53,002 nt of DNA. Source: Terriglobales bacterium (GTDB lineage: Bacteria > Acidobacteriota > Terriglobia > Terriglobales > Acidobacteriaceae). Shown here one piece after another: positions 809-5,375 of the stretch. A model generated the notes under the pieces. That model searched no databases. It was given only the letters and a program-made list of their open reading frames with translations, and was not told the DNA's origin. Position numbers and translations under genes: made by a program. Position 1 is the stretch's first letter; every line of letters begins with the position of its first letter. Location: assembly GCA_024281115.1 (NCBI GenBank), contig JAMXLI010000158.1:1-53002 (forward strand), in the 5' to 3' direction.

Positions 809-908
809 ACCGCCAATCCTGGGATACCGGGGGAGAGCAGCAAGAGTATGTTGGCGGCCCGAAGCAGTGTCAACGCGAAATCACGGGCACGGGGCGCTTT
901 CGACGCGC

Positions 909-924
909 TCAATTACCAAATTGA
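909..924. promoter_or_regulatory. Inverted repeat upstream of modA, candidate operator
   Basis: TCAATT-ACCA-AATTGA is a perfect 6-bp inverted repeat with a 4-bp centre. It lies in an AT-rich patch between the divergent propeller gene and modA, about 74 bp before the modA ATG. Symmetry and placement suggest a dimeric regulator site. It does not look like the classical enterobacterial ModE box, and no regulator gene adjoins it. Confidence 0.35.
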
Positions 925-997
925 TACCGCGGCGGCTTGGACGCGGCTGGCTCCTTTGCAGCCGGGGGGAGCATGTCCCTACGCTACAATCGCCTGC

Positions 998-1792
998 ATG
1001 TCGGCCGCCCGCGCCTGGCTTGGCGTGATGATTTTGGCGTGCTGCGCGCTTGCCTTAAGCGCGCGGGCGCCGGAGCCGTCCACACCTCAGTTGACCGTAG
1101 CCGCGGCGGCCGATCTTAGCGTCGCACTGCAACAGATCGCGCTCGCTTTCGAGCAGCAAAGCGGCGCCAAGGTGCGGATTTCACTCGGCGCCTCCGGCAA
1201 CCTCGCGACGCAGATCGAGAATGGCGCGCCTTTCGACGTTTTTCTCTCCGCCGATCTCGATTACCCGCGCAAGCTGATCGCCGGGGGCGCAGCCGATGCC
1301 GGCCTGCGCACCTACGCTGTCGGCCGCCTGGTTCTATGGTTGCCTACGCAATCGAGTCTCGATCCCGAGCGACGCGGCCTGCAGGTCCTTCTCGATCCCT
1401 CGGTGAAGAAGATCTCCATCGCCAATCCGCAGCATGCTCCCTACGGGCGCGCCGCGGTGGCCGCTCTGCGCCACTTCAACCTGTACGACAAAGTGGCGCC
1501 GCGCCTGGTTTACGGAGAAAACGTCTCCCAGGCGGCGCAGTTCGTGGAATCAGGAAACGCCCAGGCCGGCCTGGTCGCGCTCGCCCATGCGCTGGCTCCG
1601 GGAATGGCAAACCAGGGGAGGTCCTGGATCATTCCCGCGGAAGCGTACCCGCCGCTTTATCAGGGCGCGGTCATCGTCTCGCGCTCTTCCCAAAAACCGC
1701 TCGCCGCGCGCTTCCTGCAATGCCTGCGCGCGCCCGCCTCGCAAGAGATTCTGCGGCGTTTTGGATTTGCGCCCCCGGAGAGTGACGACTGA
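998..1792 (+). CDS. modA: Molybdate ABC transporter, periplasmic substrate-binding protein
   Basis: The 264-aa protein captures molybdate (or tungstate) in the periplasm and delivers it to ModBC. A signal peptide (MSAARAWLGVMILACCALALSARA) is followed by the ModA N-terminal signature TVAAAADLSVALQQIA, the oxyanion-loop region LGASGNLATQIENGAPFDVF with SADLDYPRKL, and the C-terminal TLKKP-like segment replaced by ALAARFLQCLRAPASQEIL. The ATG at 998 is chosen because it begins the signal peptide; an earlier in-frame ATG at 848 would add 50 non-homologous residues. No Shine-Dalgarno sequence precedes 998. modB starts one base after the stop, so the genes are one operon. Confidence 0.93.
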   Translation: MSAARAWLGVMILACCALALSARAPEPSTPQLTVAAAADLSVALQQIALAFEQQSGAKVRISLGASGNLATQIENGAPFDVFLSADLDYPRKLIAGGAADAGLRTYAVGRLVLWLPTQSSLDPERRGLQVLLDPSVKKISIANPQHAPYGRAAVAALRHFNLYDKVAPRLVYGENVSQAAQFVESGNAQAGLVALAHALAPGMANQGRSWIIPAEAYPPLYQGAVIVSRSSQKPLAARFLQCLRAPASQEILRRFGFAPPESDD

Positions 1793-1793
1793 G

Positions 1794-2468
1794 ATGGACT
1801 GGACCGCATTTGCGCTGACCCTGCGGCTGGCCGTCCTGGTCACGGCGGTGCTGTTCGCCGTCGGGCTGCCGATTGCATACTGGATCAGCTTTTCGCCTTG
1901 GCGCTGGAAGTTCCTGGTGGAATCGCTGGTTGCGTTGCCGCTGGTGCTGCCGCCCACGGTGCTCGGATTTTATGTGCTGCTGGCCCTCGGCTCGCGCAGT
2001 CCCCTGGGCCGTTGGTGGCAATCCATCACTGGGCACACCCTGGCATTTACCTTTGAGGGCCTGGTGATCGGGTCTTTGTTGTACAGCCTGCCTTTCGCCG
2101 TCCAGCCTTTTGCGGCATCTTTTGGCAGCGTGGACCGGCGCCTGCTCGCGGCCTCGGCCACGCTGGGCGCCACTCCGCTGCGCACTTTCACCCGCGTGAT
2201 ACTGCCGCTTTCCGCCTCCGGCCTGCTCACCGGAATCGCGCTCACCTTCGCCCATACCCTGGGAGAATTCGGAGTGGTGCTGATGGTGGGGGGGAACATT
2301 CCCGGCGTAACCCGGACCGTCTCGATCGAGATCTACGATCAGGTGCAGGCATTCAATTACTCGGCGGCCAATCAGACAGCGCTCGTCCTACTGGCGATTT
2401 CTTTTGTGGTGCTCTCGCTGGTATACGCATTGAACCGCAAAGCCTGGGTGCTATGGCCTTGGAGGTAG
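1794..2468 (+). CDS. modB: Molybdate ABC transporter permease
   Basis: The 224-aa inner-membrane permease forms the molybdate channel. It starts MDWTAFALTLRLAVLVTAVLF, one base after the modA stop, and shows about five hydrophobic segments. The family features LVALPLVLPPTVLGFYVL and the EAA loop region AASATLGATPLRTFTRVILP followed by GLLTGIALTFAHTLGEFGVVLMVGGNIPG are all present, so the coupling helix that docks on ModC is intact. Length is normal for ModB. The coding region overlaps modC by 16 bases, which fits translational coupling. Confidence 0.94.
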   Translation: MDWTAFALTLRLAVLVTAVLFAVGLPIAYWISFSPWRWKFLVESLVALPLVLPPTVLGFYVLLALGSRSPLGRWWQSITGHTLAFTFEGLVIGSLLYSLPFAVQPFAASFGSVDRRLLAASATLGATPLRTFTRVILPLSASGLLTGIALTFAHTLGEFGVVLMVGGNIPGVTRTVSIEIYDQVQAFNYSAANQTALVLLAISFVVLSLVYALNRKAWVLWPWR

Positions 2469-3610
2469 ACTCCCCCCAGCGCAGCGCCGAACGTTCCCGC
2501 GCACCTGAAAACGCGGGTCTGCAGGTATCCATCCGCGGCTTGCATCGCGACGGGGGAGGAGGGCAATTTTCGCTGGCCCTGGACTGGCAGGCGCAGCCGG
2601 GCTTCAACGTGGTGTTCGGCGCCTCGGGGGCGGGGAAGACCACGCTGCTCGACTGCATCGCGGGGCTGGCCCGTCCTGGGTCCGGGCGCATCAGCCTGGG
2701 CCCGGAAGTGCTTTTTGACAGTGCCGCCGGAGTTGACCTGCCGCCAGCGCGGCGCCGCGTCGGCTACGTCTTCCAGGACCTGGCCTTGTTCCCGCACCTG
2801 ACTGTGGCCGGCAATGTCGCCTACGGCCTTCTCCATCTGCAGCCGCATGCTGGCCGGGAGCGCGTGCACGCCATCCTGCGGCGTTTCCGGATCGATTCAC
2901 TGGCGGCGCGTCGCCCCTCCCAGATTTCCGGGGGCGAGCGCCAGCGGGTTGCGCTGGCCCGCGCCCTGGTCACCGACCCCGCCATCCTGCTGTTGGACGA
3001 GCCGATGGCGGGGCTGGACGCCCCTACCAAGTCGAACCTGCTGGCGGACTTGCGGGCATGGAACCAGGAGCGTCGCATCCCTATCGTTTACGTCACCCAC
3101 ACGCGCGAGGAAGTGTTTGCGCTGGCCGACCGCGTGGCCGTGCTGGAAGCAGGCAGAATCACCGCGCAAGGCACGCCCTACGAGGTGCTGGAGGCCCCCC
3201 GCCGCGAAAGCATCGCGCAGCTCGCCGGGTTCGAGAACCGCTTCGAAGCGCACGTGGCCGAGACGCATGAAAAAACCGGCACCATGACGTGCCGCCTGGC
3301 TGGGACTGCGGTTGAGATTGAAGCGCCGCTCATGCGCAGCGCCGCGGGAGCGAACGTGCGGCTGGCCCTGCGCGCCGGCGACATCCTGCTGGCCACTGCC
3401 CCTCCGGAGAAAATCAGCGCGCGCAATATCATTGCCGGAACAGTTCGCACGCTTGAGCAGCGCGACTTTATGGTGGTGGCGATGGTCGATTGCGGCGTCG
3501 CCTTCGAGGTCCACCTGACCCCCGGGGCGCGCGACGCCCTGCAGCTTCAACCTGGGACCGCCGTGTGGCTGGTGATCAAGACCCACTCCTTCCACGTGAT
3601 TCGGGAATAG
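2453..3610 (+). CDS. modC: Molybdate ABC transporter ATP-binding protein with Mop/TOBE domain
   Basis: The 385-aa ATPase energises ModB. Visible motifs are Walker A GASGAGKTT, the Q-loop FQDLALFPHLTV, signature ISGGERQRVALARAL, Walker B AILLLDEPMAGLD, and the H-loop VTHTREE. After the ATPase domain (to about residue 245) the C-terminal part, including SARNIIAGTVRTLEQ and VHLTPGARDALQLQPGTAVWLVIKTHSFHV, is a molybdate-binding Mop/TOBE domain, expected for ModC rather than for other importers. The start at 2453 overlaps modB. It is the last gene of modABC and converges on tetR. Confidence 0.94.
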   Translation: MALEVDSPQRSAERSRAPENAGLQVSIRGLHRDGGGGQFSLALDWQAQPGFNVVFGASGAGKTTLLDCIAGLARPGSGRISLGPEVLFDSAAGVDLPPARRRVGYVFQDLALFPHLTVAGNVAYGLLHLQPHAGRERVHAILRRFRIDSLAARRPSQISGGERQRVALARALVTDPAILLLDEPMAGLDAPTKSNLLADLRAWNQERRIPIVYVTHTREEVFALADRVAVLEAGRITAQGTPYEVLEAPRRESIAQLAGFENRFEAHVAETHEKTGTMTCRLAGTAVEIEAPLMRSAAGANVRLALRAGDILLATAPPEKISARNIIAGTVRTLEQRDFMVVAMVDCGVAFEVHLTPGARDALQLQPGTAVWLVIKTHSFHVIRE

Positions 3611-3650: not shown

Positions 3651-4256
3651 TTAACCGCGATTCTGCTTATGCGGGGCGCACAATGTGCCCAGCAGGAAGG
3701 TGAGGTCGGACCTTACCCAACGCGCCAGCGGGCCTTCCCGGTAGATCGCCCAGGCCAGCAGCGAGCCGTTGTAGGTGCTTTGGACCAGGCGCGACAGGCG
3801 GCGCGTGTTGCATGGCCGCAACTCTCCGGCGGCCACCGCTGCATCAAGAAGCCTCTGCGTTTCGCGCGCCAGCTCGCGGAACTGCCGTAGGGTGACCGCG
3901 CGAAAGTCCGCATCGGTGAGATCAATCTGCAGATACGCGAGACCATTGGCCATGGCCTGCGGCGTGGCAGCGAAGCCGCTGCATTCGACGTACAACCCGA
4001 CGAGCGCCTTGAGCGGGGACTTGTGGCGCGCGCGCGCGGCCACGAAATGCTGCTCGAGCCCGGAGGTTCCGGCCCGGCAAGCAGCAAGCAGCAGGCCGCG
4101 CTTGGTCCGAAAACGCTGGATCAGCGTAGCCGGGACGACCCCCGCCTCCTGGGCGATTTCAGCCAGGGTAAGTTGGGCGGGACTGACTCGCTGCATGACG
4201 CGGGCGGCGGCGGCCAGGATTTCCTGATCGGTGGTTTGGCGCGGGCGCGGGGTCAT
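3651..4256 (-). CDS. TetR/AcrR-family transcriptional regulator
   Basis: The 201-aa repressor has an N-terminal TetR helix-turn-helix, ILAAAARVMQ...LTLAEIAQEAGVVPATLIQRFRTKRGLLLAA, with the usual TLYxxFxxKexL element as TLIQRFRTKRGLL. The C-terminal ligand domain, about 130 residues and mostly helical, gives no clue to its effector. It is divergent from the SDR gene at 4368 and shares with it a 111-bp AT-rich region containing two near-identical 17-bp repeats, so autorepression plus control of the SDR gene is the natural reading. The ligand is unknown and may be the SDR substrate. Confidence 0.9.
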   Translation of the reverse strand: MTPRPRQTTDQEILAAAARVMQRVSPAQLTLAEIAQEAGVVPATLIQRFRTKRGLLLAACRAGTSGLEQHFVAARARHKSPLKALVGLYVECSGFAATPQAMANGLAYLQIDLTDADFRAVTLRQFRELARETQRLLDAAVAAGELRPCNTRRLSRLVQSTYNGSLLAWAIYREGPLARWVRSDLTFLLGTLCAPHKQNRG

Positions 4257-4288
4257 GGAGCGGGCAGGGGTGCCGCACTGCAGTATAT

Positions 4289-4337
4289 ATGAATGGCTAT
4301 TTATTTATTGCTTGACATTTATGAACGGCTATTTATT
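4289..4337. promoter_or_regulatory. Duplicated 17-bp operator between tetR and the SDR gene
   Basis: ATGAATGGCTATTTATT at 4289-4305 and ATGAACGGCTATTTATT at 4321-4337 match at 16 of 17 positions and start 32 bp apart, about three helical turns. Each contains an imperfect palindrome AAYGGCTATT. The second copy fills the -35/-10 spacer of the SDR promoter, and the first sits just upstream of the -10-like TATACT (minus strand, 4282-4287) of tetR. This is what a TetR dimer operator repeated once per divergent promoter would look like. Confidence 0.7.
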
Positions 4338-4339
4338 AT
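4312..4339 (+). promoter_or_regulatory. Sigma-70-type promoter for the SDR gene
   Basis: A perfect TTGACA at 4312-4317 and TATTAT at 4334-4339 are separated by 16 bp. Transcription would begin near 4346, leaving a leader of about 20 nt that carries the Shine-Dalgarno sequence at 4357-4362. The operator copy at 4321-4337 overlaps the spacer and -10, so a bound repressor would block polymerase. Confidence 0.7.
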
Positions 4340-4356
4340 GACCGCGTTCCGCCAAT

Positions 4357-4362
4357 AGGAGG
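4357..4362 (+). promoter_or_regulatory. Strong Shine-Dalgarno sequence pointing to a CTG start
   Basis: AGGAGG stands five bases before an in-frame CTG at 4368. The frame has a stop at 4356-4358 and contains no ATG, GTG or TTG before GTG 4422. That GTG lies inside the conserved first beta strand of the SDR fold (KIALVAGATRGAG) and has no Shine-Dalgarno sequence. The site therefore decides the start in favour of CTG 4368. Confidence 0.6.
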
Positions 4363-4367
4363 CGAGC

Positions 4368-5375
4368 CTGTCCCGCTCCGCCGCATATCGCGCCCCCAGC
4401 CTGCGAGGCAAAATCGCGCTGGTGGCCGGCGCTACCCGCGGCGCCGGGCGCGGCATCGCGGTGGCGCTGGGCGAGGCGGGCGCGACCGTGTACTGCACCG
4501 GGCGCAGTTCGCGCGGGCATTCCGTCACGCCGGGCCGGCCGGAAACCATCGAGGAGACCGCGCAACTGGTCGCGGCGGCGGGCGGGCGCGGTATCCCCGT
4601 CCGGGTGGACCACACCGAGCCCCAACAGGTGAAGAAGCTGGTTGCCGGCATCCGGCGCCGCCACCGCGGGCTCGATATCCTGGTAAACGACGTCTGGGGC
4701 GGCGATCCGCTCACCGAGTTCGGCAAACCCTTCTGGAACACCGATCTGGAAAACGGTCTGCACATGCTCAAGCAGGCCGTAAACTCGCACATCATCACCG
4801 CGCACTATGCCGCGCCGCTTATGCTCGGCCGCCAGGGCGCGATGATCTTCGAGATCACCGATGGCGACACGTTTCACTATCGCGGCAATCTCTTCTACGA
4901 CCTGGTGAAAATCTCTGTCATCCGGCTGGCGTTTGCCATGTCGCGCGAACTGCGCAAGCAGGGCGTGGTGGCCCTGGCCCTGACGCCGGGTTTCCTGCGC
5001 TCCGAGGCGGTGCTGCAACACTTCGGGGTTTCGGAGGCCAACTGGAGGGCGGCTGCAAACAAGGTGCCGCCCGGGCGTAAACAGAGGGTGGTGCACGACG
5101 ACACCGTGGATTTTATGTTTTCCGAGTCGCCCCGCTATGTCGGGAGGGCGGTGGTTGCGCTCGCCGCTGACCCCAAGGTGAAGAACAAGAGCGGACGTGT
5201 CTTCAGTTCCTGGGGGCTTTCCCGCGAGTACGGCTTCACCGATGTGGACGGAACCCGGCCCGATTGGGGGCGTCACGCCGCCAGGACCTACGGCAAATAC
5301 AAGTTCTGCGACGAGCGCTTTTATTCCTACTGGGCCCCCGGTCTGGTGGAGCGCATTTTTCCGGATTGGTTCTGA
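4368..5375 (+). CDS. Short-chain dehydrogenase/reductase, probable CTG start
   Basis: The 335-aa NAD(P)-dependent oxidoreductase of the SDR family shows the nucleotide-binding strand and glycine motif KIALVAGATRGAGRGIAVALGEAGATVYCTGR, the DILVNDVWGG element where classical SDRs have NNAG, and a YRGNLFYDLVKISVIRLAFAMSREL segment with the catalytic Tyr...Lys (Y-x3-K form shifted to YDLVK). Length is above the usual 250 because of a C-terminal extension (FSSWGLSREYGFTDVDGTRPDW). It resembles SDR proteins often annotated as dehydrogenases of unknown substrate. A GTG at 4422 would remove the first strand. The 3' end overlaps the convergent glycosyltransferase gene by 49 bases. Confidence 0.85.
   Translation: MSRSAAYRAPSLRGKIALVAGATRGAGRGIAVALGEAGATVYCTGRSSRGHSVTPGRPETIEETAQLVAAAGGRGIPVRVDHTEPQQVKKLVAGIRRRHRGLDILVNDVWGGDPLTEFGKPFWNTDLENGLHMLKQAVNSHIITAHYAAPLMLGRQGAMIFEITDGDTFHYRGNLFYDLVKISVIRLAFAMSRELRKQGVVALALTPGFLRSEAVLQHFGVSEANWRAAANKVPPGRKQRVVHDDTVDFMFSESPRYVGRAVVALAADPKVKNKSGRVFSSWGLSREYGFTDVDGTRPDWGRHAARTYGKYKFCDERFYSYWAPGLVERIFPDWF

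Follow-up and report, generated by a model that had tools for sequence, protein, structure and literature searches.

The divergent tetR and short-chain dehydrogenase/reductase (SDR) genes on a contig of 53,002 nucleotides from a soil-type acidobacterium (the window, meaning the whole stretch analysed) probably form a conventional TetR switch, released by a ligand, that controls a NapW-like reductase, the start codon of which has changed from ATG to CTG in this lineage. The switch itself is a well-known kind of system, and its one rare feature is the CTG start, such start codons being rare in bacteria.

A divergent TetR-reductase gene pair

The TetR-family repressor gene (3651..4256, minus strand) encodes 201 aa, with a TetR_N (PF00440) helix-turn-helix domain at the N-terminus (44.7 bits; cut-off, 24). 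Relatives that are ~60–65% identical occur in the seven comparison loci described below; viral contigs yielded no relatives of this TetR. As a rule, TetR-family proteins repress a divergent gene when <200 bp separates the two (PMC3511530); the tetR and SDR start sites are 112 bp apart.

The SDR (4368..5375, plus strand; 335 aa) falls within the NF006159/PRK08303 subfamily, scoring 429.5 bits over the whole protein against a curated cut-off of 364 (NCBIfam NF006159). Its best solved relative, with homology over the whole length, is PDB 7bsx/7btm (E=1e-86). 7BSX is named in a study of NapW, which inactivates tetrahydroisoquinoline antibiotics by hemiaminal reduction (PMC8648761). In that study, of the polar residues close to the nicotinamide, only Asp165 gave a clear loss of activity when mutated, and most of the NapW homologues tested, at 34–75% identity and from diverse microbes, were active on these antibiotics in an NADPH-dependent manner (PMC8648761). 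The window SDR retains the NapW-type Asp (residue 165), which is invariant in 20 homologues; its counterpart in 7bsx is the Asp of the TDG motif (chain residue 185), which we infer to be Asp165 after a 20-residue tag. By homology, we regard the window SDR as a NapW-like NADPH-dependent enzyme that probably reduces reactive hemiaminal or iminium compounds. Its ORF is intact and, on the evidence of a dN of ~0.11 and a dS of ~1.7 relative to its closest relative (L001), the gene is under purifying selection. Four TetR-linked SDRs from other loci (L043, L050, L059 and L060) have GDGD in place of the usual TDGD and Phe in place of the catalytic Tyr of YxxxK, with the NapW-type Asp kept, which fits a mechanism that would rely on the Asp and not on Ser/Tyr.

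At its 3′ end the SDR gene shares 49 bp (5327–5375) with the end of a convergent ORF that is glycosyltransferase-like (PMT_2). The upstream genes at 848–3610 resemble a modABC molybdate-type transporter, comprising a solute-binding protein, an ABC ATPase with a TOBE domain and, between them, an ORF that by eye is permease-like.

Paired candidate operators and promoters in the control region

Two 17-bp direct repeats (4289–4305 and 4321–4337), 16/17 identical and 32 bp apart from start to start, lie in the control region. So good a pair never arose when the intergenic region was resampled 300 times under a first-order Markov model (best, 15/17). A 16-mer repeat core, with up to three mismatches allowed, matched only at the two repeats in the 53-kb window (0.15 matches expected), and the 14-mer core TGAAYGGCYRTTTA is matched exactly at just two places in the 3.58-Mb assembly, both of them in the tetR/SDR control region. 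A wider regulon was considered and rejected: the genome has no further perfect matches to the core, and matches with one or two mismatches were no more frequent than in a reversed control.

We compared the control region across eight acidobacterial loci, each with a related TetR gene beside it (the window, L033, L043, L050, L059, L060, L130 and L007; L129 and L050 are two records of a single locus, which was counted once). Anchored on the −35 element, the eight align without gaps. Mean column conservation is 98% in the −35 and falls to ~45–50% in the flanks. The first repeat, candidate operator O1 (4289..4305, plus strand; core 4290–4303, TGAATGGCTATTTA), is on the tetR promoter side and is 91% conserved, against ~45% for its left flank. 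The second, candidate operator O2 (4321..4337, plus strand; core 4322–4335, TGAACGGCTATTTA), is 83% conserved and sits in the spacer of the SDR promoter, overlapping its −10. The O1–O2 spacing is constant at 32 bp in all eight loci, and both operators and the SDR-side promoter recur in register in the seven loci other than the window.

The SDR promoter, TTGACA-16-TATTAT (4312..4339, plus strand; −35, 4312–4317; −10, 4334–4339), is the sole sigma-70-like match in 1.9 kb, where 0.2 would be expected. On the other side, the probable tetR −10 (4282..4287, minus strand) reads TATACT, or TATTCT in most relatives, and no good −35 was seen with it. The corresponding plus-strand AGAATA columns are conserved across the eight loci and hence each promoter appears to carry one operator. 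The first-pass annotation had placed two 17-bp repeats at 32-bp spacing in the divergent promoter regions and had assigned TTGACA-16-TATTAT to the SDR; both are borne out.

Could the repeats be promoter-linked sequence, or the sites of another regulator, instead of TetR operators? O2 does overlap a conserved promoter, and the palindromy of the operators, only 8–12 of 14 positions in the aligned loci, counts against our preferred explanation. Nevertheless, O1 is as conserved as O2 without being part of the SDR promoter, all 8 loci have the pair together with a related TetR gene, and the near-palindromic shape suits a TetR dimer. We therefore consider it quite improbable that the repeats are anything but TetR operators. 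Related TetR genes of two further loci (L131 and L119), 42–48% identical, are divergent from a gene that by eye is dihydrofolate-reductase-like, with paired AT-rich sites between the two genes.

The most likely mechanism, as we read the analysis, is repression of both genes by TetR until a small molecule releases it. TetR, encoded on the minus strand, would bind at a pair of imperfect palindromes (consensus TGAAYGGCYRTTTA) separated by three helical turns. One is on the −10 side of the tetR promoter and the other inside the SDR promoter spacer. With both promoters thus occupied, both genes would be shut off. A small molecule, plausibly the reductase substrate or a related natural product, would then bind TetR and cause its release, whereupon transcription of the SDR would begin at its consensus promoter and translation, with fMet, at CTG 4368, aided by the perfect AGGAGG. 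The CTG start should lower the yield of SDR protein.

Switch and enzyme have not always gone together. In the SDR tree, the window SDR clusters with L001–L013 and L015 (100/100 support), which mostly lack this TetR gene nearby, whereas the other module-linked SDRs, except that of L007, form a separate clade. That the closest relatives (L001–L013) are mostly without the TetR module counts against our preferred explanation. The split, with the window SDR and that of L007 in a different clade from the other module-linked SDRs, suggests exchange of either the target gene or the switch.

Probable translation of the reductase from CTG

The Shine-Dalgarno sequence AGGAGG (4357..4362, plus strand) is followed by the five bases CGAGC and then by the predicted SDR start codon, CTG (4368..4370, plus strand). 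GAGG or a similar sequence occupies the matching place in relatives. An in-frame TAG (4356–4358) overlaps the Shine-Dalgarno sequence upstream of the CTG, and between the predicted transcript start (4341) and GTG 4422 none of the three frames contains an ATG, GTG or TTG. The first-pass annotation had noted the perfect AGGAGG five bases before the CTG, which is indeed present, and had held that no other start is possible before the GTG. The latter claim stands for ATG, GTG and TTG from 4341 onwards but not without exception, as CTG 4401 and ATC 4413 are in frame; neither has a Shine-Dalgarno sequence, and a start at either would lose part of the conserved N-terminus. A mini-ORF in frame with the CTG (ATG 4338 to the TAG at 4358) was rejected because its ATG overlaps the −10 and precedes the predicted transcript start; it is further ruled out by its absence from L033 and L050.

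The SDR starts with ATG in all six relatives in which the promoter drives it directly (L033, L043, L050, L059, L060 and L130), and in an ungapped alignment the CTG shares its column with the ATG of L033 and L050. A conserved Tyr is residue 7 in L033, L050, L060 and L130, as it is in the window SDR if the CTG is residue 1; the Met-to-Tyr distance is one residue longer in L043 and L059. L007 gives no start-codon comparison because a 104-aa ORF (L007:2479–2793), directly behind the conserved operator-promoter, separates the promoter from the SDR. Aligned with the orthologue start, preceded by a Shine-Dalgarno sequence and with no other conventional start nearby, CTG 4368 appears to be where SDR translation begins. 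The arrangement of CTG, operators and promoter, described at first pass as self-consistent, gains support from the seven loci in which operators, phasing and promoter recur and from the position of the CTG on the relatives' ATG.

Initiation at the internal GTG (4422..4424, plus strand) can be rejected with near certainty. Although this is the first conventional in-frame start, it has no Shine-Dalgarno sequence and encodes Val19, which is invariant in 20 homologues. In the AlphaFold model (mean pLDDT 86.5), Val19 lies inside β-strand 1 of the Rossmann fold (predicted residues 16–20), so a start here would remove most of the strand and break the fold. Since the CTG stands over ATG, the GTG is Val19 within a strand and the gene is under purifying selection, the CTG is best read as a substituted start that replaced an ancestral ATG in the window lineage.

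The main rival to a CTG start is a base error, in which the living organism has ATG and the metagenome assembly shows C at 4368 through an assembly or sequencing error or because the base comes from a minor strain. CTG is one base from the ATG of all six directly driven relatives, and the assembly consists of 349 contigs with 5% contamination. Broader genome searches found no same-genus copy of the locus and, from the family, only two related SDR-module loci; with no second genome of the genus found, the C is unreplicated. Yet the sequence bears no mark of error and the ORF is otherwise intact, making such an error unlikely.

CTG has been reported as a weak but working start in Escherichia coli (Hecht 2017, cited in PMC13068326), and CUG complexes are less stable than those with AUG, GUG or UUG (PMC11497404). 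A poor start could mean a recent loss of the start codon, with the reductase an early pseudogene that is barely or not made; the end branch of the window SDR is also long (0.26, against mostly 0.04–0.2 in its clade). Purifying selection, full length and an intact catalytic motif argue otherwise, as does retention of the promoter, both operators and the perfect Shine-Dalgarno sequence, and we think recent start loss improbable. It is also rather unlikely that selection keeps the CTG as a deliberate low-output start, in what would be a NapW-type detoxification switch of Acidobacteria under tight repression and inducible by antibiotics.

Significance and comparison with known systems

The SDR offers a candidate natural bacterial CTG start backed by comparative genomics, one at which ORF callers restricted to ATG, GTG and TTG would truncate the protein inside its cofactor-binding strand. 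The locus further suggests that, beyond antibiotic producers, NapW-like reductases can come in a TetR-controlled module. Its operator motif is directly testable, and the natural ligand might reveal the true substrate of these widespread enzymes.

Three groups of known systems resemble parts of the module. The NapW, homW and SfmO1 reductases (PMC8648761; 7bsx, 7btm) share the NDVWGG and TDG motifs, Asp165 and YxxxK with the window SDR; the latter, however, adjoins a TetR gene, and the neighbouring genes inspected include no biosynthetic cluster. By sequence, the closest solved structures to the window TetR are those of the macrolide-sensing repressors MphR(A)/EreR (6u18, erythromycin resistance repressor, and 3frq, MphR(A); E 1e-10 to 2e-11). 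The relationship is remote, and their targets are a macrolide phosphotransferase or esterase whereas the predicted target in the window is a reductase. ActR/actA, SCO4099 and SCO7222 (PMC3511530) likewise consist of a divergent pair that shares its control region, with an operator site at each promoter and an enzyme as target; the window differs from these in its near-palindromes, directly repeated at exactly 32 bp, and in its CTG-started target.
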